Below are positions 32,329 through 45,315 of a DNA stretch of 64,000 nt, piece by piece. The stretch's first letter is position 1, and every line of letters starts with the position of its first letter. Origin of the DNA: Polyangiaceae bacterium (lineage in GTDB: Bacteria; Myxococcota_A; Polyangia; Polyangiales; Polyangiaceae); the NCBI GenBank assembly GCA_019637295.1, contig JAHBVX010000004.1, positions 62,001 through 126,000 of the forward strand, written 5' to 3'. The position numbers and the translations under genes are program-made. The notes under the pieces are model-generated. The model was given only the letters and a program-made list of their open reading frames with translations, did no database searches and was not told the origin of the DNA.

Positions 32329-33198
32329 GTGCCGAAAACGCCCCCGCCGATGCTCGGTTTCAACAATAACGTCAGGCATCAAGGGCGTATTTTCCACATC
32401 CAGACGGAGGACAGCGGGGTCAAGCGACCGCACGTCATCACCCACCTGTTCGGCGACGGCGGCCGCATCCTCAAGAGCCAGAAGACCACCTACGCCGAGC
32501 ACCTCGAGCGCGAGGACATCTCCAAGGTCGTCCGCCAGCTGATGAAGGATCAGCACAAGGCGATGTTCGTCGCGCTGCGCCAAGGCGACTTCGACGCCGT
32601 CATCCTCGACGCTCTTGGACCACCCCCGGCACCGAAGCAGCCGGTAGCGAAGTCCGAGGCGGCGCCAGCCGACGCTCCGGCGAGCGCCCCCGCAGAGCCT
32701 GAGCAGCCGGCGGTGCAGCCCGCCGCGCCCGGAGCCCCGCTCGTCGCGCCCGAGCCCCCGCCTGCGGCGGCCGAGCCGGCGGTGACCCCGCCCTCGCCTG
32801 CCCCAAGCGAAGCGCCCCTGCGTCCGTCCAATTGGCCGCTCCCGCTGCGGCCCAGCCAGCCCCACATCTCGGTCGCTCCAGCGCTGCGCGACTCGGACGC
32901 GCCCATGCGCGCGGCCGCCATCCACCCGTCGCGGCCTTCCCCGCCGCCGCGGCGCGGCACACCCTCGCTGGGCACGCCGCGCGACGCCCGGCCCCGATCG
33001 GATCCGGACATGGGGCGCTATTCCGTGCTCGAGCCCGTGAAGGAGGAGCGACCGGGTCGCTACGCCGTCGCGGGCGCCGCCTCCATCTTCAGCGAAGAGC
33101 AGCCCAAGAGCATCTTTGGCGGCGACGAGCTGATCGGAGAGAAGTCTCTGGATGAGGTCATCCTCAGCTACCTCGCGGAAGACCTCGAGCAGAAGTAG
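32329..33198 (+). CDS. conserved myxobacterial protein, unknown function
   Basis: 289 residues from GTG 32329. A conserved N-terminal domain of about 95 residues (LGFNNNVRHQGRIFHIQTEDS, PHVITHLFGDGGRIL, QLMKDQHKAMFVALRQGDFD) is known to me from many delta-proteobacterial hypothetical proteins. A Pro/Ala-rich low-complexity stretch (about 100-240) follows and a short conserved tail (KSIFGGDELIGEKSLDEVILSYL) ends it. No signal or membrane segment. Function unknown. Confidence 0.7.
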   Translation: MPKTPPPMLGFNNNVRHQGRIFHIQTEDSGVKRPHVITHLFGDGGRILKSQKTTYAEHLEREDISKVVRQLMKDQHKAMFVALRQGDFDAVILDALGPPPAPKQPVAKSEAAPADAPASAPAEPEQPAVQPAAPGAPLVAPEPPPAAAEPAVTPPSPAPSEAPLRPSNWPLPLRPSQPHISVAPALRDSDAPMRAAAIHPSRPSPPPRRGTPSLGTPRDARPRSDPDMGRYSVLEPVKEERPGRYAVAGAASIFSEEQPKSIFGGDELIGEKSLDEVILSYLAEDLEQK

Positions 33199-33354
33199 GC
33201 CGGCCGGGATCCCGCAACGCCTGCAGCGTCACGCTGAGGGTACGCGCCGACTGCGCAGTTTCACGCGTCCATGACGAAAGTAAACTCGCGTACGACCCTG
33301 CGAGATCCCTGCCGTCGATCAGATCGCGCGCGACCCGCCGGCGCGCTTGGCACG

Positions 33355-33897
33355 ATGCCTGCAGCAGATGGCACTCCCTGCCGGAGACACTTGGTGCGAG
33401 CAACCTTCCCGACGCAGAGCGTCACCTTCATGGCCGTCGAGGATGGCGCGCTGCTCCCGCGCGTGAGTCCGGTCGAGCAAGGGGAGCATGAGCTGGTCGT
33501 GATCGCTCAGGACGGCGCGCGCCCCTCGACGTTCCTGTATCGCATCAGCCGTGCGCTGCTCGCGCTCGAGCGTCGGTGCCGGCGCGTCGAGCGCGCCGTG
33601 TTCGTGACGGGCACGACGCCCGCCGCCGACCGAGCTGGCGTGGCGCGGATCCTCGCCACGCACCTGGCACCCGGCGCGCAGGCAGTGCTCGATGTCGTGG
33701 CCGCCCGTGACCTCGACGCGCACCAGCGCCACGAGCTGTTCGGACTGGCCGACGTGCTCACCCGCGAGTTACCCCAGCGCGCGTCCTTGCGAGTCCGATT
33801 CGACGGCACCTGCGCGCCGCTCGACAGCGGCGTGTTCGCGCGCACGGAGGCCGACCGCGCCTCGTCCCTGCCGCCTCCGGGACAGGCGAGCGCATAG
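33355..33897 (+). CDS. unrecognised protein at the head of the radical SAM locus
   Basis: 180 residues if started at ATG 33355; the frame is open back to 33271 and a GTG at 33391 is also possible. An N-terminal beta-rich part (TFPTQSVTFMAVEDGALLPRV) is followed by a Rossmann-like alternation (LVVIAQDG, ERAVFVTGTTPAAD, AVLDVVAARDLDAHQRHELFGL). Not similar to anything I recognise. It is on the same strand and 93 bp ahead of the first radical SAM gene, so it is a candidate partner of that enzyme. Confidence 0.55.
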   Translation: MPAADGTPCRRHLVRATFPTQSVTFMAVEDGALLPRVSPVEQGEHELVVIAQDGARPSTFLYRISRALLALERRCRRVERAVFVTGTTPAADRAGVARILATHLAPGAQAVLDVVAARDLDAHQRHELFGLADVLTRELPQRASLRVRFDGTCAPLDSGVFARTEADRASSLPPPGQASA

Positions 33898-33990
33898 CGT
33901 CGGTTCCACGGCGCGACTCGAGCCCAGCAGCCCAGTACGAGCCGCCGGGGCCTGGCTGCCGGGTGGCAGTTGTGGGACACTCCCGGCGGG

Positions 33991-35034
33991 ATGCCCGAGG
34001 ACAAGTCGCTCTATTGCCTGTTGTTCCTGACGCGGCGCTGCAACATCGATTGCACCTACTGTCACATGGAGCACGACGGCTATGAGGACATGACCGAGGA
34101 GCGGCTCGCGCGCGCCATGAAGCTGTTTCTCGGGGTGAACCCCAACGTCTGTCTGCACCTGTTCGGGGGCGAGCCGCTGCTGCGCTTCGACTTGATCGAG
34201 TGGATCCTGGAGCACGCGGCCAAGCACTACGCGGACCGCAACATCAACTACATGATCACGACCAACGGGCTCTTGCTGCGCGATCGCTATCTGGACTACC
34301 TCCTGGAGCACGGCGTGCGGGTGATGCTCAGCCTCGACGGCAGCTTCGACTCGCAGAAGGACTGGCGCCGGACCATCGGCGGGGACGGCCGTCGCGCCTA
34401 CGACCGCATCGTCGAGAATCTGGCCGAGCTGAACCGACGCAACGTGGACTACTTCGTCAACATGGTGGTCAGCCCCGAGAACGTGGACCGCATGGAAGAG
34501 AACGTGCTCTTCTTTCGTGATCTGGGGGTTCGCCGGCTGCAGGTCACCTACGAACTCGGGGCGCATTGGTGCGAGCCGTTCCGGTCCGCGTACGTGCGGG
34601 GTTTTCGCGAGGTGATCGAGAAGTATGACGGGCAGGCTGAGTTCTCCCTGCAGTACGGGCCCTCCAGCGAGCCGGTGCTCGGCAACATGACGTTCATCGT
34701 CGACGTCAACGGTGACATGTACCGCGGCTGCGCGGTCGTGCTCGAGAAGACCATGCCGCGCTTCAACGAGGTGGTCCGTATCCCCAACCTGGACGAGCAG
34801 CGCGACCTGACGAGCTTCGTGCGCAGCCGCGACGAGCAAGTGCGAGACTTCCTGCGCCGTACCCGCGTCGCGGAGAACGACTACAAACTCCTGCGCAGCA
34901 ACATGCACCTTGGCTACCTGTTGCGCCGGGAGATGTTCGACATGCAAGCCCAGCGAGCCGAGCACCCGGGCCAACCCGCCGCCCCGCGACCCGTGGCTCA
35001 GCCGAGCGCCGGGCGCAGTCCGTCGGCGCCGTAG
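33991..35034 (+). CDS. radical SAM enzyme A (CX3CX2C), SPASM Cys mostly lost
   Basis: 347 residues from ATG 33991 (a GTG at 33970 is in frame). The [4Fe-4S] motif is C17-x3-C21-x2-C24 in RRCNIDCTYCHMEH. SAM-site features follow: LFGGEPLLRFD, MITTNGLLL, MLSLDGSFDSQ. The C-terminal half has the strand FIVDVNGDMYRGCAV where SPASM proteins carry cluster Cys, but only this one Cys is left. It therefore likely holds one cluster. It is similar to enzymes D and F of this locus (shared FGGEP, TTNG, SLDG). The 3' end overlaps gene B on the other strand by 37 bp. Substrate unknown. Confidence 0.85.
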   Translation: MPEDKSLYCLLFLTRRCNIDCTYCHMEHDGYEDMTEERLARAMKLFLGVNPNVCLHLFGGEPLLRFDLIEWILEHAAKHYADRNINYMITTNGLLLRDRYLDYLLEHGVRVMLSLDGSFDSQKDWRRTIGGDGRRAYDRIVENLAELNRRNVDYFVNMVVSPENVDRMEENVLFFRDLGVRRLQVTYELGAHWCEPFRSAYVRGFREVIEKYDGQAEFSLQYGPSSEPVLGNMTFIVDVNGDMYRGCAVVLEKTMPRFNEVVRIPNLDEQRDLTSFVRSRDEQVRDFLRRTRVAENDYKLLRSNMHLGYLLRREMFDMQAQRAEHPGQPAAPRPVAQPSAGRSPSAP

Positions 35035-35942
35035 CGGGCGTGGTGAGCGGCGACGAGCCCCGGGCAGCGGGCGCGCTCGGCGCAGTCGGTGCAGGTCGCG
35101 TCGAAGGTCATGCGTTGGGCACGGAAGTACAGCTGAATCAGGAGCGCCGCGCCGCGCGGGAGCGCGGGCGCGATGCAGCGCGGCATTCCGATCAGCGACA
35201 CGTCGGCGCCCTCGAGCGCCGCCTCGAGCTCACCGTAGCTCGCGGCTTCGCGCTCGAACGAGAACACGTCGTCCTTCGCTCGCAGCGGCGCGACCGCCAG
35301 CGTCGCTCCCCACCGCTCGCGGGTCAGTCGCCCGAGCGCGGAGAGATCGCCCAGGGTCCGCCGCAGCGCGAGGGTGTGAACGTACGTGGTCATGCCAGAA
35401 GCCCGCGCGCGGTCGAGGCCACGGGTGGCGCGCTCGAAGTGCCCGGGCACGCCCACGACCTGGTCGTGCAGCGCCGCGTGCGAGCCGTACAGCGGCGCGC
35501 ACACCGAGCGTACGCCGAGCCGAAACCACTGTCGGGCGGTCGCGTCGTCCTCGATGGACAGCCCCGAGGTCATCAGCTGTACGCGGCGGAAGCCCACCTG
35601 CTGCGCGCGCTCGAGCGTTGCGCGAAAGTGCGCGTGGGTGGGGGGCTCGGTACCGCCGATGCACAGCGCCTCGACGCCGAGGCGCCGATTGTCGTCGAGC
35701 CAGCGCTCGATGCGCTGCACGGGCGTCACGATGTCCTCTCCTGGCGCCGTGACCGCGGGGCTAGCACAAAAAAAGCAGCGTCCGTGGCACGCGCTCATCA
35801 GGATCAAGAGCCCGGCTCGCGGCAGTCCCCAGGCCGCCAGGCGCTCGAGTTGCACGGCGAGGGGCGCGGCCATCACCTCGGCCATGGCCTCGTCCTCGTG
35901 GCCGGGGACGCGGACGTCGAGGTGGCGCTTGTCCAGGGTCAT
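34998..35942 (-). CDS. radical SAM enzyme B with Twitch-like C-terminal Cys set
   Basis: 314 residues from ATG 35942. The motif is C52-x3-C56-x2-C59 (SACHGRCFFCAS), then CIGGTEPPTH for the GGE-type SAM contact and LMTSGLSI. Towards the end, C256 in GMPRCIAP and C284-x2-C287-x5-C293 in CTDCAERARCPGL form a set of four Cys that could bind an auxiliary [4Fe-4S] cluster. The same arrangement recurs in the C-terminal half of enzyme E. The start faces enzyme C across 35 bp containing a palindrome. Substrate unknown. Confidence 0.82.
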   Translation of the reverse strand: MTLDKRHLDVRVPGHEDEAMAEVMAAPLAVQLERLAAWGLPRAGLLILMSACHGRCFFCASPAVTAPGEDIVTPVQRIERWLDDNRRLGVEALCIGGTEPPTHAHFRATLERAQQVGFRRVQLMTSGLSIEDDATARQWFRLGVRSVCAPLYGSHAALHDQVVGVPGHFERATRGLDRARASGMTTYVHTLALRRTLGDLSALGRLTRERWGATLAVAPLRAKDDVFSFEREAASYGELEAALEGADVSLIGMPRCIAPALPRGAALLIQLYFRAQRMTFDATCTDCAERARCPGLVAAHHARYGADGLRPALG

Positions 35943-35954
35943 GCGTCGGCTCCG

Positions 35955-35972
35955 AGGTAGGGTATCCTACCT
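35955..35972. promoter_or_regulatory. inverted repeat between divergent radical SAM genes B and C
   Basis: Arms AGGTAGG and CCTACCT flank a GTAT centre. It lies midway in the 35-nt gap between the starts of B (35942, minus) and C (35978, plus), 12 nt from one and 5 nt from the other. The TATCCT within it can serve as a -10-like element. It is well placed to be an operator controlling both genes at once, and gene C has no clear Shine-Dalgarno, so leaderless translation is possible. Confidence 0.6.
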
Positions 35973-35977
35973 ACGGC

Positions 35978-37294
35978 TTGCGCGCTCTGTTCGTCCACAC
36001 TCCCTTGTCCGGCGCGGCGTTCAACACGTCGATCGCGGCGCTCAGCGCCTACCTGAAGCAACGCGGCCACGAGACGCGCCTGCTGCTCGTGCCGCCCAGC
36101 CCACGACTCGACGACGTCGCGCGGCTGATGCAGGACAGTGCGGCGGACGTGGTCGCGTTCTCGTTCATGACCTGCCGGCTCGACCTGGTTCGCAAACTGG
36201 TGCCGGTGGCGCGCGCGGCGCTGCCGGACGCGCGCGTGATCGCCGGCGGCGCCCACCCGACGTCGTACCCGCAGCCCACCCTCGACTTGGGCTTCGACGC
36301 GATCTGTCTGGGCGAGGGTGAGGAGCCGCTGTGCCGACTGCTGGGCGACCCGGTCGGCGAACATCCGGGGATCTGGCGTCGCGAAGGGCCGGTCCCGACG
36401 GAGCGTTGGTGGGCCGAGGATGTGGACGCGCTGCCTGACTGGGATCGGGCGCTGTTCGGCGACGTTAGGAACAGCGGCAACCGCTTCGAGGCCGCGATTG
36501 GCGTGGCCCTGGCGCGCGGGTTCTGTCCCTACTCGTGCACGTTCTGTGGAGTGGACGGCTACCGGCGCATCAACGGCGTCAGCAGCGCCAAGGCGATGCG
36601 CCTGCGCTCGGTGGAGCGGGTGCTCACCGAGATCGAGAACGCGCGACCGCTGGCCGAGCCCGCCGCCGGCTTCGCGGCCTGGGACGAGGTGTTACCCTCG
36701 AACCTGACCTGGCTGTCGGAGTTCTGTCGCCAGTATCGGGCGCGGGTGAACCTGCCCTTCGCCTGCCAATTGCGCGTCGAGCAGGTGCGACCCGAGCTGG
36801 TGGCGGCGCTGGTCGAGGCGGGCTGCGACTACGTGGTGCTCGGCGTGGAGACCGGGGACGAGGAGTATCGCAAGCGCATCCTGAACAAGCCCTTCACCAA
36901 CGAGCGCGTGAAGCAGGCTTTCTCCCTGCTTCACGGCGCCAAGATCGCGACCTTCTGCTCGTTCATGATCGGCTTGCCCTTCGAGACGCCGAAGATGCTG
37001 GCGGCAAGCATCCGCCTGGCGCAGGAGCTGCGCCCGAGCGAGCTGTCCTGGAAGTACTATACGCCCGAGCGCGGTACGATGTTGTTCGGGCTGGTGGAGC
37101 GCGAGGGTCTCGTCATCGAGCGATACGTGGACCACCCCTTCGGCGCGAACGAGGCCATGGTGCGCATGACCCGCTGCACGCAGCGAGATCTGGACAAGGC
37201 GAGCGAGGCCTTCCGGCTGCTGCGCGGCGACGGGGTGAGGGGCACCTTCGAGCAAGACTCGGAAGAGCCCCTGCGCTTGGAGCTGCGCGCATGA
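35978..37294 (+). CDS. B12-binding-domain radical SAM enzyme C
   Basis: 438 residues from TTG 35978; later ATGs would cut off the N-terminal domain, so the rare start is preferred. Residues 1-130 form the cobalamin-type Rossmann domain (ALFVHTPLSG, LLLVPPSPRLDDVARLM, RVIAGGAHPTSYPQPT, ICLGEGE). The radical SAM motif is C183-x3-C187-x2-C190 in GFCPYSCTFCGV. Later parts include VLGVETGDEEY and SFMIGLPFET. Members of this class methylate unactivated carbons or do related B12-dependent chemistry; the canonical DxHxxG cobalamin motif is not evident, so cofactor binding is uncertain. Its stop overlaps the start of D (ATGA). Confidence 0.82.
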   Translation: MRALFVHTPLSGAAFNTSIAALSAYLKQRGHETRLLLVPPSPRLDDVARLMQDSAADVVAFSFMTCRLDLVRKLVPVARAALPDARVIAGGAHPTSYPQPTLDLGFDAICLGEGEEPLCRLLGDPVGEHPGIWRREGPVPTERWWAEDVDALPDWDRALFGDVRNSGNRFEAAIGVALARGFCPYSCTFCGVDGYRRINGVSSAKAMRLRSVERVLTEIENARPLAEPAAGFAAWDEVLPSNLTWLSEFCRQYRARVNLPFACQLRVEQVRPELVAALVEAGCDYVVLGVETGDEEYRKRILNKPFTNERVKQAFSLLHGAKIATFCSFMIGLPFETPKMLAASIRLAQELRPSELSWKYYTPERGTMLFGLVEREGLVIERYVDHPFGANEAMVRMTRCTQRDLDKASEAFRLLRGDGVRGTFEQDSEEPLRLELRA

Positions 37295-38388
37295 TCCCGA
37301 CGGCGCAGGAGGCGGAAGCGCGCCTGCGAGCGACGCTGGCGCGTGGCAGCGTGAACTTGGGCGCGCGCGCTGGGACGGAGCGCCTGATGCTGATGCTCAC
37401 GCGCTCGTGCCACCTGCGCTGCAGCTATTGCTTCGTGAGCAAGACCGAGGGGGGACCGGTCATGCCTGCTGCCGTGGCGGCGCGGGCCATCGACCTGTTG
37501 ATGAAGTCCGAGCGGCCCCGCCTCGAACTGCAGCTGTTCGGCGGGGAGCCCATGAGCGAGTGGGAGCGGCTGACGCAGGTGCTCGAGCACGCGACGCACC
37601 ATCCCGAGCGTCGCGGGCGCAAGCTGGAGGTCATCCTGACGACCAACGGTGTGCTGCTCGACGAGGCGCGCATCGCGGTGCTCGAGCGCTATCCGGTCGT
37701 GATCTTGTTCTCGCTGGACGGCGACCGCGCCTCGCACCGTCGCTTTCGAGTGGTGCACCGCGGCCCGGACGCCGCTTGGCACGAGGACGACGCGCCGACC
37801 TACGATCGGATCGCGCGCTCTCTGGCGCGGTTGAAGCGCGCCAAGGTCGGTTGGTTCATGAACGCCGTGCTGCCGCCATCCGCGGCCACCGAGGTCGAGG
37901 AGCGTCACGCCTGGGCGATCGCGCAGGGCGTGCCCCGCCTGCAGCTGAACTACGCGGTGGGCATGCGCTGGACCGAGGAGCAGATGCAGCAGTACCTCGT
38001 GGGGCTACGCGCCGTGCTGCTCGCGGACCACGAGAGGAGCGAGCTGCAGCTCTTCAACTGGATGAGCGACTGCGAGCCCGTGGTGCTCAGCGACGACCTG
38101 ATCGTGGACGTGGACGGCACGGTGCTGCACGACGGGGCCATCTTCCTGGAGCGCTCCTTCGGTCGGCTGAAGGAGACCTATCGACGGGGCCACCTGGACG
38201 GGCTCGACGCGTTCGATCCGCTGCGCTGGAGCCTGCAGACTCTGTACGAGGTCATGCGCGACACCTACCCCGAGGGCAGCGAGGAGCGCGGGATATTGCT
38301 GCAGAACATGCGCTTCGGCGCGGCTGTGGACCTGCTGATCCAGCGGGTGACACAGGAGCTGGGACGGCCGCCGTCGCGGGGAGCATGA
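37291..38388 (+). CDS. radical SAM enzyme D, paralogue of A and F
   Basis: 365 residues from ATG 37291, overlapping the stop of C. Motif C40-x3-C44-x2-C47 in RSCHLRCSYCFVSK, then QLFGGEPMSEWE, ILTTNGVLL and LFSLDGDRASHRRF. The C-terminal strand LIVDVDGTVLHDGAIFLER aligns with A and F at the place where SPASM proteins have Cys, but none remains (only one Cys, in MSDCEP). The region LQLNYAVGMRW matches LQVTYELGAHW of A and IQLNYALGTLW of F. Translation of gene G starts inside its stop. Substrate unknown. Confidence 0.85.
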   Translation: MIPTAQEAEARLRATLARGSVNLGARAGTERLMLMLTRSCHLRCSYCFVSKTEGGPVMPAAVAARAIDLLMKSERPRLELQLFGGEPMSEWERLTQVLEHATHHPERRGRKLEVILTTNGVLLDEARIAVLERYPVVILFSLDGDRASHRRFRVVHRGPDAAWHEDDAPTYDRIARSLARLKRAKVGWFMNAVLPPSAATEVEERHAWAIAQGVPRLQLNYAVGMRWTEEQMQQYLVGLRAVLLADHERSELQLFNWMSDCEPVVLSDDLIVDVDGTVLHDGAIFLERSFGRLKETYRRGHLDGLDAFDPLRWSLQTLYEVMRDTYPEGSEERGILLQNMRFGAAVDLLIQRVTQELGRPPSRGA

Positions 38389-39122
38389 GCGCGCGCGAGC
38401 TGATCGACGCGCTGCTCGCGGCGTGCTTCCCCGGCGCGCTGCCCCCGCAGCTCGACCGACTCGTGGATCGCGCGTGTGCGGCCGAGCTCCTCCAAGACTT
38501 CAAGCTCGGACCGATACTGCCGCTCGGGGCCCAGCGACCGGTGCGCGTGGCGCTCAGCAATCAAGGCGAGCCGGAGCGTTGGCGTCGCGAGGTGCTGGCC
38601 GGCTATCCTCACGCCAAGCTCGCGCGCTTCATCGACTCGGTGTCGGCGTCGACGCGACGCATGGTCGACACCGACGGACACAGCGCCGTCGTCTACCTCG
38701 ACGATCTGCAGGATCTGAGCGAAGCGCCGCGGGACTCGGAGGGTCGCCCCCTCATGTTCTTGACCTTCGACTGCGCGACCGGGCGCGTCGGCTCCGGGAC
38801 GAGGCACCCCGAGCCTCCGGTCAGCCTGCTCGGGGGCATACTTCGCGCGCGACTCGAGGGGCTGCTCGCGCACGGTGCGACCGGTCTCTGGGCGATCCGC
38901 TGGCTACGCAAGGAGCCGAGCGCGCTGATCTGGATCAGCGAGAGCCGGTGGCGGAACGACCCGCGCGACAGCGCTGCCGTCGCCAAGGCCGTGGGCTCGC
39001 ACCCTGCCCTCGAGGCCTGCGAGCGGGTCGCGGGCGCCGCGGGACTGCTGGTGTACCCCGACGCCCTCGAGGCGCGGCTGGACGGGAGCTGGGATCTGAC
39101 GCTCGGCTTCTGCAGAGCGTGA
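38385..39122 (+). CDS. unrecognised protein G, coupled to radical SAM enzyme D
   Basis: 245 residues from ATG 38385, overlapping the stop of D. Soluble, mixed alpha/beta, no signal, with segments such as LPLGAQRPVRVALSNQGEPE, AVVYLDDLQDLSEAPRD, MFLTFDCATGRVGSG and GLWAIRWLRKEPSALIWISES. No catalytic motif recognised. Strict coupling suggests a subunit, carrier-recognition or chaperone role for the C-D pair. Ends tail to tail with E, 2 bp apart. Confidence 0.6.
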   Translation: MSARELIDALLAACFPGALPPQLDRLVDRACAAELLQDFKLGPILPLGAQRPVRVALSNQGEPERWRREVLAGYPHAKLARFIDSVSASTRRMVDTDGHSAVVYLDDLQDLSEAPRDSEGRPLMFLTFDCATGRVGSGTRHPEPPVSLLGGILRARLEGLLAHGATGLWAIRWLRKEPSALIWISESRWRNDPRDSAAVAKAVGSHPALEACERVAGAAGLLVYPDALEARLDGSWDLTLGFCRA

Positions 39123-39124
39123 CG

Positions 39125-41374
39125 TCAGCTGGCGATCACGGCCAGGCGGCGTCGGGTCTCGGCGGGTGGACGGAGCTCTGCGTCGCCGTGCCGCTCGACA
39201 TACTCGGTCCACAATCCCTCGCAGGACACGCGGACTCGGCAATCCGAGCACGCGGCCGCGAACTGCTTGGCCGCCTGTCGCTGTGCCGCCCGGGCGATGG
39301 GCTGACCGCGAGGGTCGAGCACCTCGTCGAAGGGGCGGCCAAGCTCGAAGGGAGGTGGCGCCCCTGAATCGAACCCGAGCACGCACTCAGGAATGCCCGT
39401 GAACTGCAGCTCGAGCTCGAGCTCCGCGGCGGCGCGCAAGGCTCGAGGCAGCTCGCGCGCCACTTCCCGCAACGCGGGCAGGTCCGCGACGGGCAGACGA
39501 TCCCACCCGCTCGGCGCCTCCCCGTACACGAGCAGCAGCGAGTCGGCGCCGTGCTCCCGCAGCCACGCGGGCCAGCGATGGAGCGACGAGACGTTCCAGC
39601 GGTCGATGAAGCCGAGCGCCGTGGCTTGCCCGCCCTCGCGAGTCCAGCCGAGCAGTCCCTTGCGCGTCTCGCGCAGCGCGCCGGGGCGACCGACGCGTCC
39701 GTCGTGATGCGCCTCGTGGATGGCGAAGAGCGGGACCGAGAGGCGCTCGACCATCCCGGTGGCGGCCAGCTTGCTACGCAGGGTGCGGGTCAGCGCGCGA
39801 GCGGAGGTCTGCAGCGCCAGGTGATGCACCCCTCGCCGCTTGCCGAACTCGAGCAACTCGAGCAGCTGCGGGTGATCGACCGCGTCGCCCCCGCCGAGCA
39901 CGCAGTGTTCGCCGCGCCAAGCGGCCATCAGGAACTGCTCCTCGAGCCGTTCGAGGGAACGTGGCTCACGCGCCGCGCCGCAGCTGCAGCCAAGGACCGA
40001 GTGCTGGCAGCCGTCCGAGACGGAAATGTAGGTGGTGCGATGCAGCAGCAGCCGCTCGAGTCGGCGGAGCTTCTGCGCGTCGTTCTCGCCGGTGTAGTCC
40101 GGCGCCAGATCGAAGGGACTCTGCTCGGGATCCGTCTCGAAGTAGTCGGGACCGATCACGCCCTCCTTCACGGCGGCGTCCCACAGGTAGGTGCCGGGGT
40201 ACACCTTCGTGGTGTTGATCAAGATGCGATCCGGCTGCAGGGTGCTGGCCAGCGCCACGCTCTCCCGCATGGTCTCTTCCGTCTCGCCCTGATTGCCGAC
40301 CATGAGCATGATGCACGACGAGATGTTCGCCTGGTGGGTGAGCTCGAACGCCGGCGGGACGCGCTTCACGCTGAGCTTCTTGCGGATGGCCTTCTGCACC
40401 GTCTGCGACAGGCTCTCGATGCCGTAGGAGATCTCGCGGCACCCGGCCTGCGCCATCGTGTCGAGCACCTCGCGGCTGACCATGTCGGCCCGCGTCATGC
40501 AGATCCACTCGATGTCGACCTTGCGCTCGATGAGCAGCTCGCAGATCTCCATGATCTGCCGGTTGGGATAGGTGAGTGTGTTGTCTCCGAACACGAAGGT
40601 GCGGTGGTCGAAGGTGCGCTTGTACTGCTCGATCTGGCGCACGATGTACTCCGGCGAGTGAAACAGCGTGCGACCCTCCCACTTGCTGAGCGGGCAGAAC
40701 GAGCACTCCCAGACGCAGCCCCGGGAGCCCATCACCATGATCAGCGCGTCGGTCACGAAGGGAGCGCGACCCGAGGCGTCGATGCGTCGCATCTGCTCGC
40801 GGCTCTCGGGCAGGAGGTGCCGGTCAATCATCTCGCGCACCGGGAACAGCTCGAGCTTCGGAAAGGGCAAGGTGTCGAGCGCCGTGAAGCGGCCGCGCTC
40901 GGCCGTGCGCCGCACAGCGCCGCCCACGCGCAGGGCCAGCCCCGGTACGCGAGCCAGCTCCCGTCCGGACTCCAGCGCGTCGACCACCTCGGGCAAGGTC
41001 TCGTCGCCGTCCCCGATGCACACCAGCTCCGCGGGAGTGCGGCGCAAGAGCAGCTCTGGTTCCAGAGTCGGGAACGGCCCCCCGAGGATCACCGGCACGT
41101 CCGGAGCGATGGCCTTCAGCTTGCGCGCGGCGAGCTCCGCCGGCCCGCGGTTCACGCTCAAGCACGAGATACCCACGAGGCCCGGCTCGTCCTGCCGCAC
41201 CACGCGCTCGAGATCCGCGAGCATGTCGCCCACCGAGCCGCGGTCGTAGTCGTATGCCGTGACCCGGTGCCCCGCCTGCTCGAGCAACGCCCCGAGCAGC
41301 GCGAGCCCGTAGGGCGGGCCGAAGTACGACGGCGCGGGGTTCGCGGTGGGCGGAAACAACAGCGCCACGTTCAT
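39125..41374 (-). CDS. radical SAM enzyme E: B12-type radical SAM plus altered second radical SAM half
   Basis: 749 residues. Residues 1-150 are a B12-binding-type domain (LLFPPTANPAPSYFGPPYGL, VILGGPFPTLEPE, ICIGDGDETLPEVV-like). The first radical SAM motif is C220-x3-C224-x2-C227 in SRGCVWECSFCPLS, followed by FVFGDNTLTYP and SYGIESLSQTVQKAI. From about 450 a second half starts with C456-x6-C463-x-C465, an altered motif, then CVLGGGDAVDHPQLLELL, resembling a radical SAM barrel, and ends with C664 (GIPECVL) and C709-x2-C712-x5-C718, the same C-terminal Cys set as enzyme B. A fused B-like domain with a changed first cluster is inferred. Confidence 0.82.
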   Translation of the reverse strand: MNVALLFPPTANPAPSYFGPPYGLALLGALLEQAGHRVTAYDYDRGSVGDMLADLERVVRQDEPGLVGISCLSVNRGPAELAARKLKAIAPDVPVILGGPFPTLEPELLLRRTPAELVCIGDGDETLPEVVDALESGRELARVPGLALRVGGAVRRTAERGRFTALDTLPFPKLELFPVREMIDRHLLPESREQMRRIDASGRAPFVTDALIMVMGSRGCVWECSFCPLSKWEGRTLFHSPEYIVRQIEQYKRTFDHRTFVFGDNTLTYPNRQIMEICELLIERKVDIEWICMTRADMVSREVLDTMAQAGCREISYGIESLSQTVQKAIRKKLSVKRVPPAFELTHQANISSCIMLMVGNQGETEETMRESVALASTLQPDRILINTTKVYPGTYLWDAAVKEGVIGPDYFETDPEQSPFDLAPDYTGENDAQKLRRLERLLLHRTTYISVSDGCQHSVLGCSCGAAREPRSLERLEEQFLMAAWRGEHCVLGGGDAVDHPQLLELLEFGKRRGVHHLALQTSARALTRTLRSKLAATGMVERLSVPLFAIHEAHHDGRVGRPGALRETRKGLLGWTREGGQATALGFIDRWNVSSLHRWPAWLREHGADSLLLVYGEAPSGWDRLPVADLPALREVARELPRALRAAAELELELQFTGIPECVLGFDSGAPPPFELGRPFDEVLDPRGQPIARAAQRQAAKQFAAACSDCRVRVSCEGLWTEYVERHGDAELRPPAETRRRLAVIAS

Positions 41375-41418
41375 CGCATCTCTCCCGCGGAACGATGACT
41401 ATACGGGCGCGCGCCGGG

Positions 41419-43434
41419 TCACGCAAGCGGGGGGCTCGAGCGATGACTCCGGGCGGCGCGCGACGCGGTGGCGTCTCGACGGAGCAGCTCGAGGCCCGGG
41501 TGCTTGCGACGCATGTAGCGGATGAAGCTCATGAGCACGGCGCCCACCTGGCGGTTGTTCTGGGCCATCTCGGGGCTGAACCAGTTGGCGAGCAGCTCGT
41601 CCATCTCGAAGCCGTCACACTGGTAGCGGTCGAACGAGCGGGCGTCGTCGAGGTGGCCGAGGCGAAAGTCCTCGCGGTGCTTGGTGTTCACCAGGAAGGC
41701 CGAGCTGCCGAAGACGGAGCCGTCCGAGTCCACCGTCACCTCGAGGTTGCCCCGGACGGGCAGGAGCGTCTCTTCCAGGTTGACGAGCTCGGCGCGCTCA
41801 TCGCCGAGCCAGCGCCGCTCGAGCTCCTCGCCCACCCGGGCGAGCTGGCGTCCAAACTCCTCGGCCGCGGGTCTGTCCCAGAGCGTGCCGAGCGCGTAGT
41901 TGAGCTGGATGCGCGAGTAGCCGAGCCCGAGGATGTGCCGAAAGTTCTCGGCCATCGCGGAGACGTTCGTAGGGTGAACGACCTGCACGACGTCGTGCGC
42001 GATGCCCGCCTCGGTGAACCACCGAGCCTTGGTCGCGGGGCTGCGGTCGTAGGAGTCTCCCGCGACGCGGAGCGCCGGACGGACGGCGTTCTGCGTGACC
42101 GCGTCCCCATCGAGCGAGAGCTGAAACCACACCGGGAAACCCGCGAGCCAGTCGAAGCGCTCCCGGGTCAGGGCCCAGCCGTTGGTCGTGAACAAGAAGC
42201 GCAGGGTGCGTCCGTCGGCGCGAGCCCGCTCGTGGCCGGTGCTCAGCGTGTGCACAATGGCGTCCCAGGCCGCGAGGGGCTCGCCGCCGAAGAAGTGCAG
42301 GTCGAGCTCGTCGCCCTCCGCGGAGAACAGCAAGTCGAGCGAGCGATCGATGGTCTGAGCAGACATCACCCGGCCGTCCTGCTTGGGGATGCGGCAGTAC
42401 TTGCAGCGCAGCTCGCACTGCCAGGTCGGGATCAAGACGATGCGCGGGCGCCGACTCTGCGCGTACTGACGGTAACTGCGGATCCACTTGGATGGTGGTC
42501 CCAGGTGCTGCGTGGTCGCGCTGACGGCGCGGGCCTCTTCGGTCGCGGCGTGGCGCGCGCGGCTCTCGCGGATCGCCGCGAAGCACGCCCGCCGTGCGGC
42601 GTCGTCCGAGTGCCGCAAGAGCGGCTCCGGGGCGGGCAGTTCGCGCAGCGCCTGGTCGAGGTGCTCGAGGGCGGCGAGCGTGAGCGACCCCGTGCTCGAG
42701 AGCGAGCGGGCGAACTCCGCCGGCGCGCACCCCAAGAGGCCGAGCTCCGGCGCTCGCCCCGCGACGCGAAGTCCGAGCGCCACCAGCCAGCGCAGCGTGG
42801 CGAGCAGCGCGTGCGGCGGTTCGTCGCCGACGGTCACACTCGTCACGTGAAACCCATCCTGCAGGATGGCTCCCTCGAGCGCCGCTCGGCGCCCGGCGTC
42901 GGCCAGCCAGCGCGTGCCCACGAGATGCAGGCCGCGCGCTCGCGCCGGCTCGAGTCCCTCGGTCAGCTGCGCGTGACGCTCGAGGGTCTTGCGCAGCGCG
43001 GCGGCGTCGAGGACCGACGGATCTGCGACGCCGGGGCGATGACAGTGAGCGCCCGCACGCGTCGTGAGCCGCAGGCCATTGAGCAGTAGCGCGCTGGTGA
43101 GCTCGCCGTAGTCGTCGATGGTGATCGGGTCGCCGGCATCGGCGCGCGGCCGCAGAGCGAGCCAGCGGCTCAGCTCCGTCGTCTCCGCGTCGTCCATCAG
43201 CCCAAACTCGTGCGGCTCGCGCGCGAGGGCCTCGTCGAGTTGCTCCCGCGCCCAGCCGCCCTGACGCAGCGCTTGCAGGGCCACGCCTTGGTCCATCAAG
43301 AGCACCTCGACTCGCGCCCCCGCGCGGGTGCCCCGGGTCTCGAGCAACGCGCGACAGGGCTCGATGTCCCCGGCACGAGGCCTGGGCAGCAGCTCCTCGA
43401 ACAACAAGACCGTGCGCGCGCCCGCGTCAGTCAC
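41419..43434 (-). CDS. radical SAM enzyme F with 330-residue N-terminal domain of unknown type
   Basis: 671 residues from GTG 43434. The N-terminal part (1-330) is not recognised: helical, with segments such as RTVLLFEELLPRPR, GDPITIDDYGELTSALLLNG and LLATLRWLVALGLRV. The radical SAM part has C340-x3-C344-x2-C347 (WQCELRCKYCRIPK), HFFGGEPLAAW, LFTTNGWAL and QLSLDGDAVTQN, closest to A and D. The C-terminal strand EVTVDSDGSVFGSSAFL lacks SPASM Cys. The start lies within the end of the halogenase gene (8-nt overlap), so both are made together. Substrate unknown. Confidence 0.84.
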   Translation of the reverse strand: MTDAGARTVLLFEELLPRPRAGDIEPCRALLETRGTRAGARVEVLLMDQGVALQALRQGGWAREQLDEALAREPHEFGLMDDAETTELSRWLALRPRADAGDPITIDDYGELTSALLLNGLRLTTRAGAHCHRPGVADPSVLDAAALRKTLERHAQLTEGLEPARARGLHLVGTRWLADAGRRAALEGAILQDGFHVTSVTVGDEPPHALLATLRWLVALGLRVAGRAPELGLLGCAPAEFARSLSSTGSLTLAALEHLDQALRELPAPEPLLRHSDDAARRACFAAIRESRARHAATEEARAVSATTQHLGPPSKWIRSYRQYAQSRRPRIVLIPTWQCELRCKYCRIPKQDGRVMSAQTIDRSLDLLFSAEGDELDLHFFGGEPLAAWDAIVHTLSTGHERARADGRTLRFLFTTNGWALTRERFDWLAGFPVWFQLSLDGDAVTQNAVRPALRVAGDSYDRSPATKARWFTEAGIAHDVVQVVHPTNVSAMAENFRHILGLGYSRIQLNYALGTLWDRPAAEEFGRQLARVGEELERRWLGDERAELVNLEETLLPVRGNLEVTVDSDGSVFGSSAFLVNTKHREDFRLGHLDDARSFDRYQCDGFEMDELLANWFSPEMAQNNRQVGAVLMSFIRYMRRKHPGLELLRRDATASRAARSHRSSPPLA

Positions 43435-44749
43435 GGCTCGCCCCTCGCCGGTCCTTCGCTCGTTTGAGCGCCTTCCTGTTCACGCCGAGGGCGCGGAAGA
43501 TCTTCTGCTCCTGAGCTTCGTGGAAGATCCGGTAGTGCGCGTCCACCGCGTACTGACCGCTCGTGAGGTAGACGAACGCGCGCATGGGCGTGGACACCGA
43601 GTCCGCGGGGATCTGTTCGTGGGCCTCCCAGAACAGGCCGCTCACCGAGCGGTTGTTACCATACCAGTAGCGGGCCAGGCGCAGGTACGCCCGGTACTCC
43701 TGGATCAAGCGCTGCGCGTAGCGTTCGAGAGCAGCGGCGCCCGCGGACTCGTCGCGCATGGAAGTGAGCAGCGCGAGCGCGCCATTGCACGCGCCGCGCA
43801 CGGCGAAGTCCACGCCGCCCGAGAGGATGGGGTCGACGAAGCACGCGGCGTCTCCCACCAGCATCCAGCCGGGGCCGACCACGCGCTGGTGGGAGAAGGA
43901 CCAGTCCTTGGCGTGGTGGAGCACCGAGCCGTCGTCGCGCGTCGCAAACTCGCCGCCGCCCAGGGGCAGCTCGGCGTGCGCCAGCAGCTCGTCGAAGCGC
44001 TGTCGCGTCAACTTCGCGCGCTCGCGCACGACGACGCCGACGCTGGTGCGCGCCGCGCTGACGGGGATGAACCACACCCAGCCCTCGGGGATGGTGACGA
44101 CGAGCTGCACGTGGCGACCGAGCGCCCCCGGCACACCACCCGCGCCGTCCACGTACGCGTAGCAAGCGGTGGCGCGCATGTCGGGCACCACGGAGGTGAG
44201 CGAGAAGGCTCGCCCGAGCAAGCAGCGCTGACCGGACGCGTCCACGACGAAGTCGGCCCGCTCGACGGCGCCAGTCGACAGGCGGACGCCCACGACTCTC
44301 CCGTCCTCGACCACCGGCGCGTCGACCTCTACGCCCTCGCGCACGTCCACGCCCCGGCGCTCGGCCTCGCGCAGCAGCACCTCGTCGAACCGCTCGCGCA
44401 AGACCTGCCAGGCGTGGTCGTAGCCGCCCGCGAGCAACTGCGCTTCATCGAGCCGCTCGAGGTCGCGCTCGAGGCGCTCGTCGAACAGCACCGTCCAGGG
44501 CTCGCGCGACTCGCCCCACACGTAGACCGCGCCGTACTTGCGCGCGAACCCTTGGCTCGCGAGCGCGCTGCCCAGCCCCAGGTAGTGCTCGAGCAGCTCG
44601 ATGGTCGCCGGCTGCAGCGACTCACCGACGTGATGACGAGGGAAGCGCTCCTTCTCGAACAGCGTGACCCTCACCCCCTCTCGAGCCAAGAGCGCCGCCA
44701 AGACCGAGCCCGCCGGCCCCCCGCCCACCACGACCACGCGCTGCTCCAT
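43427..44749 (-). CDS. flavin-dependent halogenase
   Basis: 440 residues from ATG 44749 (an in-frame ATG at 44764 is possible). FAD-binding GGGPAG at 9-14; K71 in GFARKYGAVYVWG sits where the catalytic Lys of the pyrrole/phenol group of flavin halogenases (PltA, CmlS type) lies; W214-x-W216-x-I218-P219 in EGWVWFIPV is the halogenase WxWxIP signature; GDAACFVDPILSGGVDFA closes the flavin site. It likely makes HOCl-type chloride transfer to an aromatic or activated carbon, using reduced FAD from a separate reductase (none seen here). Coupled to radical SAM F. Confidence 0.85.
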   Translation of the reverse strand: MEQRVVVVGGGPAGSVLAALLAREGVRVTLFEKERFPRHHVGESLQPATIELLEHYLGLGSALASQGFARKYGAVYVWGESREPWTVLFDERLERDLERLDEAQLLAGGYDHAWQVLRERFDEVLLREAERRGVDVREGVEVDAPVVEDGRVVGVRLSTGAVERADFVVDASGQRCLLGRAFSLTSVVPDMRATACYAYVDGAGGVPGALGRHVQLVVTIPEGWVWFIPVSAARTSVGVVVRERAKLTRQRFDELLAHAELPLGGGEFATRDDGSVLHHAKDWSFSHQRVVGPGWMLVGDAACFVDPILSGGVDFAVRGACNGALALLTSMRDESAGAAALERYAQRLIQEYRAYLRLARYWYGNNRSVSGLFWEAHEQIPADSVSTPMRAFVYLTSGQYAVDAHYRIFHEAQEQKIFRALGVNRKALKRAKDRRGASRD

Positions 44750-44811: not shown

Positions 44812-45315
44812 TCAGCCGCAGTCCGAGGCGCAGCTCTGCTGCATGCATCCGGCCAGGGTCGTGAACGCGGGCCCCTCGCTCCCCGCCTGCTGGATGCACA
44901 CCGCCATGGTCTTGCCGCTTTGCATACAGGTGATGATGGCGTTGCAGTTCGAGTCCGTTGCGCAGGCGGTCATCGCGCTGCAGCAGCTCGTGTTGATGCA
45001 GTTGTCGCAGGCGCCGTCCGTGCCGCTCAGGGGGCCGCAGGGACCGGGCTGCTTGCCCCCGTCGCCGCCCCCGGCCGCGCCGCTGCTGCCCGCCGCGCCG
45101 CCCGCGCTGCCGGCGCTACCGCCGCTCGAAGTGCCGCCGCTCGAGCTGCCTCCGCTCGACGCGCCGCCGCTCGACGCGCCGCCGCTCGACGCGCCGCCGC
45201 TCGACGCGCCGCCGCTGCTCGGCGACCCCTCGCTGCCGTCGCTGCCGCAGGCGCTCGAGCCTACGAGCGCACACAGCGCGAAGGTGACCCCCAGTGACAG
45301 CTGACTCATCCGCAT
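44812..45315 (-). CDS. Cys-rich lipoprotein with tandem SSGGA spacer
   Basis: 167 residues (alternative start at Met3). Signal LCALVGSSAC gives lipidated C23. A spacer made from tandem SSGGA units runs to about residue 85, and the last 75 residues hold a Cys-rich domain (ACDNCINTSCCSAMTACATDS, CMQSG, CIQQAG, CMQQSCASDC). I know similar Cys-rich lipoproteins from other myxobacteria, which argues for a surface protein of that family. It is next to, and co-directed with, the halogenase gene (62-bp gap), so a role as a substrate of the radical SAM enzymes cannot be excluded. Confidence 0.75.
   Translation of the reverse strand: MRMSQLSLGVTFALCALVGSSACGSDGSEGSPSSGGASSGGASSGGASSGGASSGGSSSGGTSSGGSAGSAGGAAGSSGAAGGGDGGKQPGPCGPLSGTDGACDNCINTSCCSAMTACATDSNCNAIITCMQSGKTMAVCIQQAGSEGPAFTTLAGCMQQSCASDCG
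45128..45222 (-). repeat. tandem 15-bp repeat coding SSGGA spacer
   Basis: At least four near-perfect copies of a 15-bp unit (GCCGCTCGACGCGCC on the plus strand, 45151-45215) encode SGGAS repeats; diverged copies extend on both sides. Length probably varies between strains by slippage. Lies inside the Cys-rich lipoprotein gene. Confidence 0.8.

Follow-up and report, generated by a model that had tools for sequence, protein, structure and literature searches.

The described systems closest to the locus reported here are the His-Xaa-Ser (Hxs) systems, in which radical S-adenosylmethionine (SAM) enzymes of the HxsC and PapB types surround an (HxS)n peptide (HxsD, TIGR03976; HxsC, TIGR03977; HxsB, TIGR03978; HxsA4, NF038313; HxsC4, NF038332). 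A network study refers to the annotated proteins HxsB and HxsC as putative maturases (PMC9062424), and a genome report lists Hxs genes (PMC8446631). The literature searched, with preprints and most subscription papers outside its scope, mentions the system only in passing. Judged by HxsB, the system occurs in 126/377 genomes (about a third) of the phylum, Myxococcota as far as named relatives indicate. Here we describe a set of eight genes, A to H, at positions 33970–44749 of a 64,000-nucleotide stretch (the window; contig C20, positions 62001–126000) of the 7.65 Mb draft genome of a Polyangiaceae bacterium. The set encodes six radical SAM proteins (A–F), a flavin halogenase-like protein (H), and a predicted aromatic prenyltransferase (G). 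Its tailoring enzymes track HxsA4 systems by genome co-occurrence, and G-, H-, and F-type genes are linked to HxsA4 in some genomes. The locus itself, in which no substrate gene was found, may well be a satellite tailoring cluster that acts in trans on an HxsA4-type peptide, a reading that we favour tentatively.

The likeness to Hxs systems lies in the G-, H-, and F-type genes found in or near Hxs clusters elsewhere. What sets the locus apart from those clusters is a predicted prenyltransferase fold, a halogenase-like enzyme, and the proteins C and E. Because HxsA, HxsB, and HxsD are absent from it, we class the locus as a variant of the peptide-maturation systems of ribosomally synthesized and post-translationally modified peptides (RiPPs) and not as a member of Hxs. 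No described pathway with this set turned up in the literature searched, where radical SAM enzymes were looked for together with halogenases, prenyltransferases, and RiPPs, in line with an earlier interpretation made from the DNA letters alone (the sequence-only reading), which knew of no pathway with this gene set.

The eight genes are tightly packed and form four same-strand runs, namely A (+), B (−), C-D-G (+), and H-F-E (−); since the set spans both strands, it is not one operon. C and D share 4 bp, as do D and G, while H and F share 8 bp, which agrees with the overlapping or abutting gene ends that had been noted before. The 3′ ends of A and B overlap by 37 bp, and 2 bp lie between the end of G and E. 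Each of A–F matches PF04055 in a Pfam scan and carries a CX3CX2C motif (starting at C24 in A, C52 in B, C183 in C, C40 in D, C220 in E, and C340 in F), so that all six radical SAM candidates of the sequence-only reading were borne out. Given 64 PF04055 matches in 7.65 Mb, 0.079 would be expected per 9.5 kb by chance; the probability of at least six in 9.5 kb is 3e-10, or ~3e-7 genome-wide. The density of radical SAM genes at the locus is thus far above chance.

Scans of G (38385–39122, +, 245 aa) against Pfam and NCBIfam returned nothing at E ≤ 0.01. Pfam applied to seven members of its family gave nothing of weight (one of the seven matches AAA_16 at E 0.088), nor did a profile search of solved structures in the PDB (best E 0.64). 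An AlphaFold2 model built from seven homologs (the window and six public loci) has ten strands, a predicted local distance difference test score of 94.6, and a predicted template modelling score of 0.91. In a Foldseek search of the PDB, rows 1–30 are all aromatic prenyltransferases, 25 of them at E ≤ 0.001, after which the scores collapse. A structural aligner superposed the model on the Trp prenyltransferase PriB with a Z score of 16.6 and a root mean square deviation of 3.4 over 239 of the 245 residues, and IptA and CymD are within 1 Z unit of PriB. Residues R54, R91, Y104, R172, W183, E186, and Y224 are invariant across the seven homologs. Based on the model, G is confidently predicted to have a hidden PRENYLTRANSFERASE fold that Pfam and NCBIfam miss, and to be a small ABBA (PT-barrel) aromatic prenyltransferase. 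Like PriB, IptA, CymD, CloQ, and the cyanobactin-type KgpF (8ye0), it would form a 10-stranded PT barrel over its whole length (Z 13.3–16.6), but these enzymes have chains of 280–429 aa, and G is shorter and has no weighty sequence match to Pfam, NCBIfam, or PDB profiles. G thereby represents a small prenyltransferase-fold family outside both domain collections. Prenylation of a RiPP precursor has a precedent in MppC, which geranylates a Trp and requires the leader (PMC12715784).

H (43427–44749, −) matches PF04820 (2e-42) and contains GWVWFIP at 223, FVDPILSGGV at 304, and Lys71 in RKYGAVYVWG, which aligns with a Lys of CmlS and a Lys of 3e1t. The sequence criteria of flavin-dependent halogenases (GxGxxG, the catalytic Lys, and WxWxIP) are all present, confirming the WxWxIP motif and Lys recognized earlier, and Lys71, WxWFIP, and FxDPILxGG are kept in 8/8 aligned H relatives. 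The best solved matches are the halogenases 3e1t (6e-59), 8zop, and CmlS (3i3l, 6e-45), far ahead of RebH; the peptidyl Trp dihydroxylase 7ctq gives 1e-15, and the QhpG profile gives 163 bits against a cut-off of 240. H is therefore a predicted flavin-dependent halogenase-like enzyme. By description it can be likened to SrpI, MibH, and ChlH, flavin-dependent halogenases that act on Trp of RiPP peptides. SrpI brominates only the C-terminal Trp of its RiPP precursor (PMC10286304) and ChlH halogenates a peptide Trp (PMC12518702). Unlike in those systems, no partner peptide lies in the locus.

Three of the radical SAM proteins are PapB-like and lack the SPASM cysteines: A (33970–35034, +; TTG start, with an in-frame ATG at 33991), D (37291–38388, +), and F (41419–43434, −), in which the PapB-like domain follows an unassigned N-terminal domain (residues ~1–300). 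Their PF04055 matches are 2.5e-23, 2e-12, and 2e-9, respectively. The PapB-type ranthipeptide maturases (NF047865) are their best NCBIfam profile (108 bits for A, 102.9 for D, 105 for F; 103–108 in all); the scores are far below the 340-bit cut-off. All three also match HxsB TIGR03978 (67–84 bits, cut-off 370) and, below cut-off, the quinohemoprotein maturation radical SAM model TIGR03906. In a radical SAM tree of 45 rows, six of which are long branches of unsure placement, A, D, F, the fused enzymes described below, and the PapB-like enzymes of Hxs clusters each form a supported group, and a branch with support 97/88 parts them together from SPASM-bearing outgroups. Clade A has support 100/100, and so has the clade that joins F with enzymes in which a B12-binding radical SAM protein is fused to a PapB-like one. 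The SPASM region contains 0–3 cysteines in these groups (1 each in A, D, and F) versus 4–10 in the outgroups. As judged from alignment and tree, A, D, F, and the Hxs-type PapB-like enzymes make up a radical SAM subfamily that has lost the SPASM cysteines and divides into clean ortholog groups. The N-terminus of F was considered as a decayed B12 domain, which is unproven (hhalign against the fused enzymes' B12 half: probability 5%, E 0.008).

Of the others, B (34998–35942, −; PF04055 8e-15) is HxsC-like, with a C-terminal CX2CX5CPG motif and TIGR03977 HxsC as the best profile (60.7 bits, cut-off 267.9). C (35978–37294, +; PF02310 1.3e-21, PF04055 1.9e-19) and E (39125–41374, −; PF02310 6e-20, PF04055 7e-30) both have B12-binding and radical SAM domains above the Pfam cut-offs. 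E is fused to a degenerate HxsC4-like domain: its second radical SAM-like half (residues ~430–740) matches B and HxsC4-type proteins and has an irregular cysteine motif (C456-X6-C-X-C) that is missing in the 55% identical relative in genome G329, where the C-terminal CX2CX5-6CEG motif is kept. E further resembles the RiPP enzymes ApyD and TIGR03975, below cut-off.

The 377 genomes of the phylum were searched for D, E, G, and HxsB; genes in relatives were called with a script based on GC by codon position and a 60-aa minimum, which gives only approximate starts and passes over short genes. G329 (M1802), which belongs to another family than the source genome, has relatives of all eight proteins: A 51%, B 52%, C 62%, D 62%, E 55%, G 45%, H 63%, and the F N-terminus 34% identity, a range of 34–63%. 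G, A, and E lie on one 4.9 kb contig, C, D, and the F N-terminus on another (C adjoining D), and B and H on others. G388 (UBA796) has relatives of seven (A, B, D, E, F, G, and H; C was not searched there), including A at 43%, F at 35% over residues 11–646, and H at 54%; B/D-G are on one contig, F, A, an extra radical SAM gene, and E on a second, and H on a third. E matches (E ≤ 1e-70) were found in 3/377 genomes, the source genome included, and G matches in 9/377. A search of the order gave G in 4/183 genomes, adding G082 and G178. Two G patterns run against 84,980 named species genomes matched 139 stretches and led to six confirmed loci, titled Myxococcales, Deltaproteobacteria, Sandaracinaceae, or uncultured bacterium metagenome-assembled genomes; the outcome rests on how well these short patterns fit, and the source genome itself may be absent from the collection scanned. 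D relatives at 43–62% occur in 21 other genomes among the 377, and B relatives at 41–52% in 5/5 other genomes searched. In G363, G258, G325, and G388, B and D are no more than 6 kb apart. These comparisons support the view that the eight genes are a real functional set conserved in other families.

The proposal of the sequence-only reading that the locus is one pathway, which it had drawn from gene packing, holds in part. The set recurs in G329 (eight genes) and G388 (seven), while H, B, D, and the fused F-type enzyme also occur apart; separation in related genomes had been named as evidence that would overturn the proposal, and H does stand alone in G329, G363, G222, and G198. Nearly all of the genomes that contain the scattered loci have an Hxs system, which suggests one distributed pathway. 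D-like matches (E ≤ 1e-32) were found in 26/377 genomes, comprising 22 with D relatives of at least 43% identity (the source genome included) and four with a ~1000-aa fused enzyme only, and 23 of the 26 are HxsB-positive, against 126/377 overall (hypergeometric 2.6e-9). Nine of the 26 belong to one genus; counted by genus, D-like matches coincide with HxsB in 11/14 against a background of 78/234 (5e-4). Eight of the nine G genomes are HxsB-positive (9e-4). The HxsB-negative exceptions G314, G388, and G444 are 73–86% complete, and G388 retains an HxsA4 tail, truncated at a contig end, next to a PapB-like enzyme of Hxs type. H relatives (E ≤ 1e-80) occur in 7/160 genomes, all seven HxsB-positive, with the HxsB background counted for the 377 only; the 20 genomes of one H search had been chosen for having D or G, and its 18/20 is no independent count. 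The HxsA4 profile matched in 12/12 genomes tested (10 above cut-off; 11 of the 12 carry G), compared with one of 14 named control genomes, below cut-off.

Physical linkage was observed in several genomes. G is ~2 kb from HxsA4 in G285, G198, and G222, 5.8 kb in G082, and ~14 kb in G179; in the first three the G domain is part of a 460–495-aa protein, with a weak match in G222 (3.5e-5). In G364 (87 kb contig) and the source genome, G and the Hxs genes are on different contigs or far apart, and the contigs of G329, G388, and G446 are too short to judge. In G328, H sits between HxsC4 and another Hxs-type radical SAM enzyme, 6.7 kb from HxsA4; in G179 its distance from HxsA4 is ~10 kb. In 10 genomes (four loci annotated) a fused-enzyme match precedes D on the same strand by <1 kb, and in G358 the fused enzyme adjoins an H fragment at a contig end. 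The source genome has HxsB on contigs C8 and C21 and none on C20. Its C21 cluster contains HxsD, an HxsD-like gene, HxsB, HxsA4, a PapB-like enzyme, and HxsC-type enzymes, as well as a 1071-aa fused B12-radical SAM/PapB enzyme ~2 kb from HxsD, whose PapB half groups with F.

The locus has no nonribosomal peptide synthetase or polyketide synthase, and its gaps yielded no clear precursor, as the sequence-only reading had stated. By eye, the gaps of 30.3–48.5 kb, nested reading frames lying outside the inspection, held no precursor-like open reading frame (ORF) of at least 22 aa, and no (HxS)3 or longer tract is present in any frame of the window. Among 99 intergenic ORFs of at least 20 aa compared, none is shared by the window with the loci of G329 and G388, which are on short contigs (the check covered the window, L049, L050, L092, and L093); the sole cross-locus match (E 0.05 over 10 residues) is at chance level. 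Elsewhere, the source genome encodes two HxsA4 peptides (C21:95824–96084 and C20:395298–395567). Each of the 14 distinct HxsA4 cores in the loci fetched terminates in HG(Q/S)W, contains a single Trp, and is free of Tyr and Phe; two of the 14 are partial at contig or locus ends, and most loci were fetched for Hxs or G/D/H matches. With a single Trp, many His, and no Tyr or Phe in these cores, Trp or His would be the natural target for G and H.

In the tentatively favoured reading, an HxsA4-type (His-Gly-Ser)n peptide would be supplied in trans, the two peptides of the source genome being candidates. C and E could methylate or otherwise modify unactivated carbons, and A, D, F, and B could cross-link or oxidize leader or repeat residues. 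G might prenylate the single C-terminal Trp, or His, and H might halogenate or hydroxylate that Trp. Several observations weigh against this reading. HxsA, HxsB, and HxsD are missing from the locus, and of the two HxsA4 genes one is ~290 kb distant on its contig and the other is on a different contig. H is on a contig of its own in the four genomes named above, no D relative shares a contig with HxsB among the HxsB matches listed, and most HxsB genomes have no D-like, G, or E match. The co-occurrence counts are uncorrected for genome size and handle kinship crudely, by genus. In G082, HxsA4 has the terminal Trp though there is no H-like match there (E ≤ 1e-20), and the Trp is thus not specific to H genomes. 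A wider proposal, which we regard as speculative and on balance doubtful, is that the maturation of a poly-(His-Gly-Ser) peptide in Myxococcota takes twelve or more enzymes encoded at two or more loci. Among them would be B12 radical SAM methyltransferases, PapB-like enzymes of the SPASM-less subfamily, a minimal ABBA prenyltransferase, and a halogenase that targets the single C-terminal Trp, and the outcome would be a prenylated, halogenated, His-rich, and possibly metal-binding RiPP class. The locus offers concrete, testable candidate enzyme-substrate pairs, namely G and H on HxsA4 peptides.

The locus could alternatively serve a RiPP whose own precursor, encoded elsewhere in the genome, is not HxsA4 and is, for example, a Nif11-type or lipoprotein-like peptide. 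The lack of a detected precursor at the locus would fit this, and there are potential candidates in a Nif11-like peptide of another cluster on the same contig and in a lipoprotein-like gene next to H; however, no intergenic ORF recurs across the short contigs compared, and the co-occurrence points to Hxs, which makes this rather doubtful to us. A pathway without any peptide seems unlikely; in it, G would prenylate and H would halogenate free Trp or another aromatic compound, which the radical SAM enzymes would methylate or rearrange. The best structural matches of G are Trp prenyltransferases such as PriB and IptA, H is closest in sequence to halogenases such as 3e1t and CmlS, with RebH far behind, and no peptide was found in the locus, all of which would suit a small molecule. 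Against it, A, D, F, and B resemble peptide maturases and E resembles RiPP enzymes (all below the curated cut-offs), and the set tracks Hxs systems.

The QhpG and 7ctq scores of H and the TIGR03906 matches of A, D, and F raise a further explanation, in which H is a QhpG-like peptidyl hydroxylase or an inactive homolog and the cluster matures a quinone-type protein cofactor rather than a secreted product. The halogenase matches of H are far stronger (3e1t), its catalytic Lys and motifs are kept in all eight aligned relatives, and no quinoprotein gene was found among the flanking proteins scanned; we consider this explanation very improbable.

Two neighbouring genes were evaluated as members of the set. 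X (33271–33897), the other of two proteins that the sequence-only reading had left unrecognized besides G, was found in 2/12 genomes, both of one genus and with 30% identity in the second. It was rejected as a member; moreover, D (E ≤ 1e-32), E (E ≤ 1e-70), and G (E ≤ 1e-4) are all without a match in the second genome, G021, which is of the same genus as the source genome. Of the two proteins only G is supported as part of the set, with a predicted fold that had been missed. The lipoprotein-like gene I (44812–45315, −) has GGASS repeats and a Cys-rich C-terminus and ends 62 bp upstream of the H ATG on the same strand. It had no family match in profile scans, and its role as a precursor or member is unsupported. 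Flanking major facilitator superfamily transporters and a DUF5996 gene were not noticed in the relatives' loci, where no search was aimed at them, and were left out. Upstream, 32329–33198 (+) encodes a protein with the N-terminal domain of RomY (NF053858, 1e-34, above cut-off), a myxobacterial regulator.

Other arrays were noticed in passing. The HxsA4-like (HGS)n peptide on C20 is an orphan ending in HGSW and lies in a hybrid RiPP-like locus (C20:388634–395567; L076:2635–9568) with the Nif11-like peptide (PF07862, just below cut-off), a Lant_dehydr_C/metallo-beta-lactamase fusion, a second metallo-beta-lactamase-fold protein, and a separate Lant_dehydr_N protein. The source genome has more radical SAM arrays at C1:280000–310000 and 860000–878000 (L003, L004, L005), one with three B12-radical SAM enzymes and one HxsC4-like enzyme and another with three HxsC4-like enzymes, all below curated cut-offs. 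In G082, a NifH-like protein and two nitrogenase component-1-like proteins adjoin an F-type fused B12-radical SAM/PapB enzyme (C497; L025:2936–10295), and a 967-aa protein (C1080; L024:2442–5345) contains three radical SAM domains (HxsC-like, PapB-like, and HxsC-like), each with its cysteine motif.

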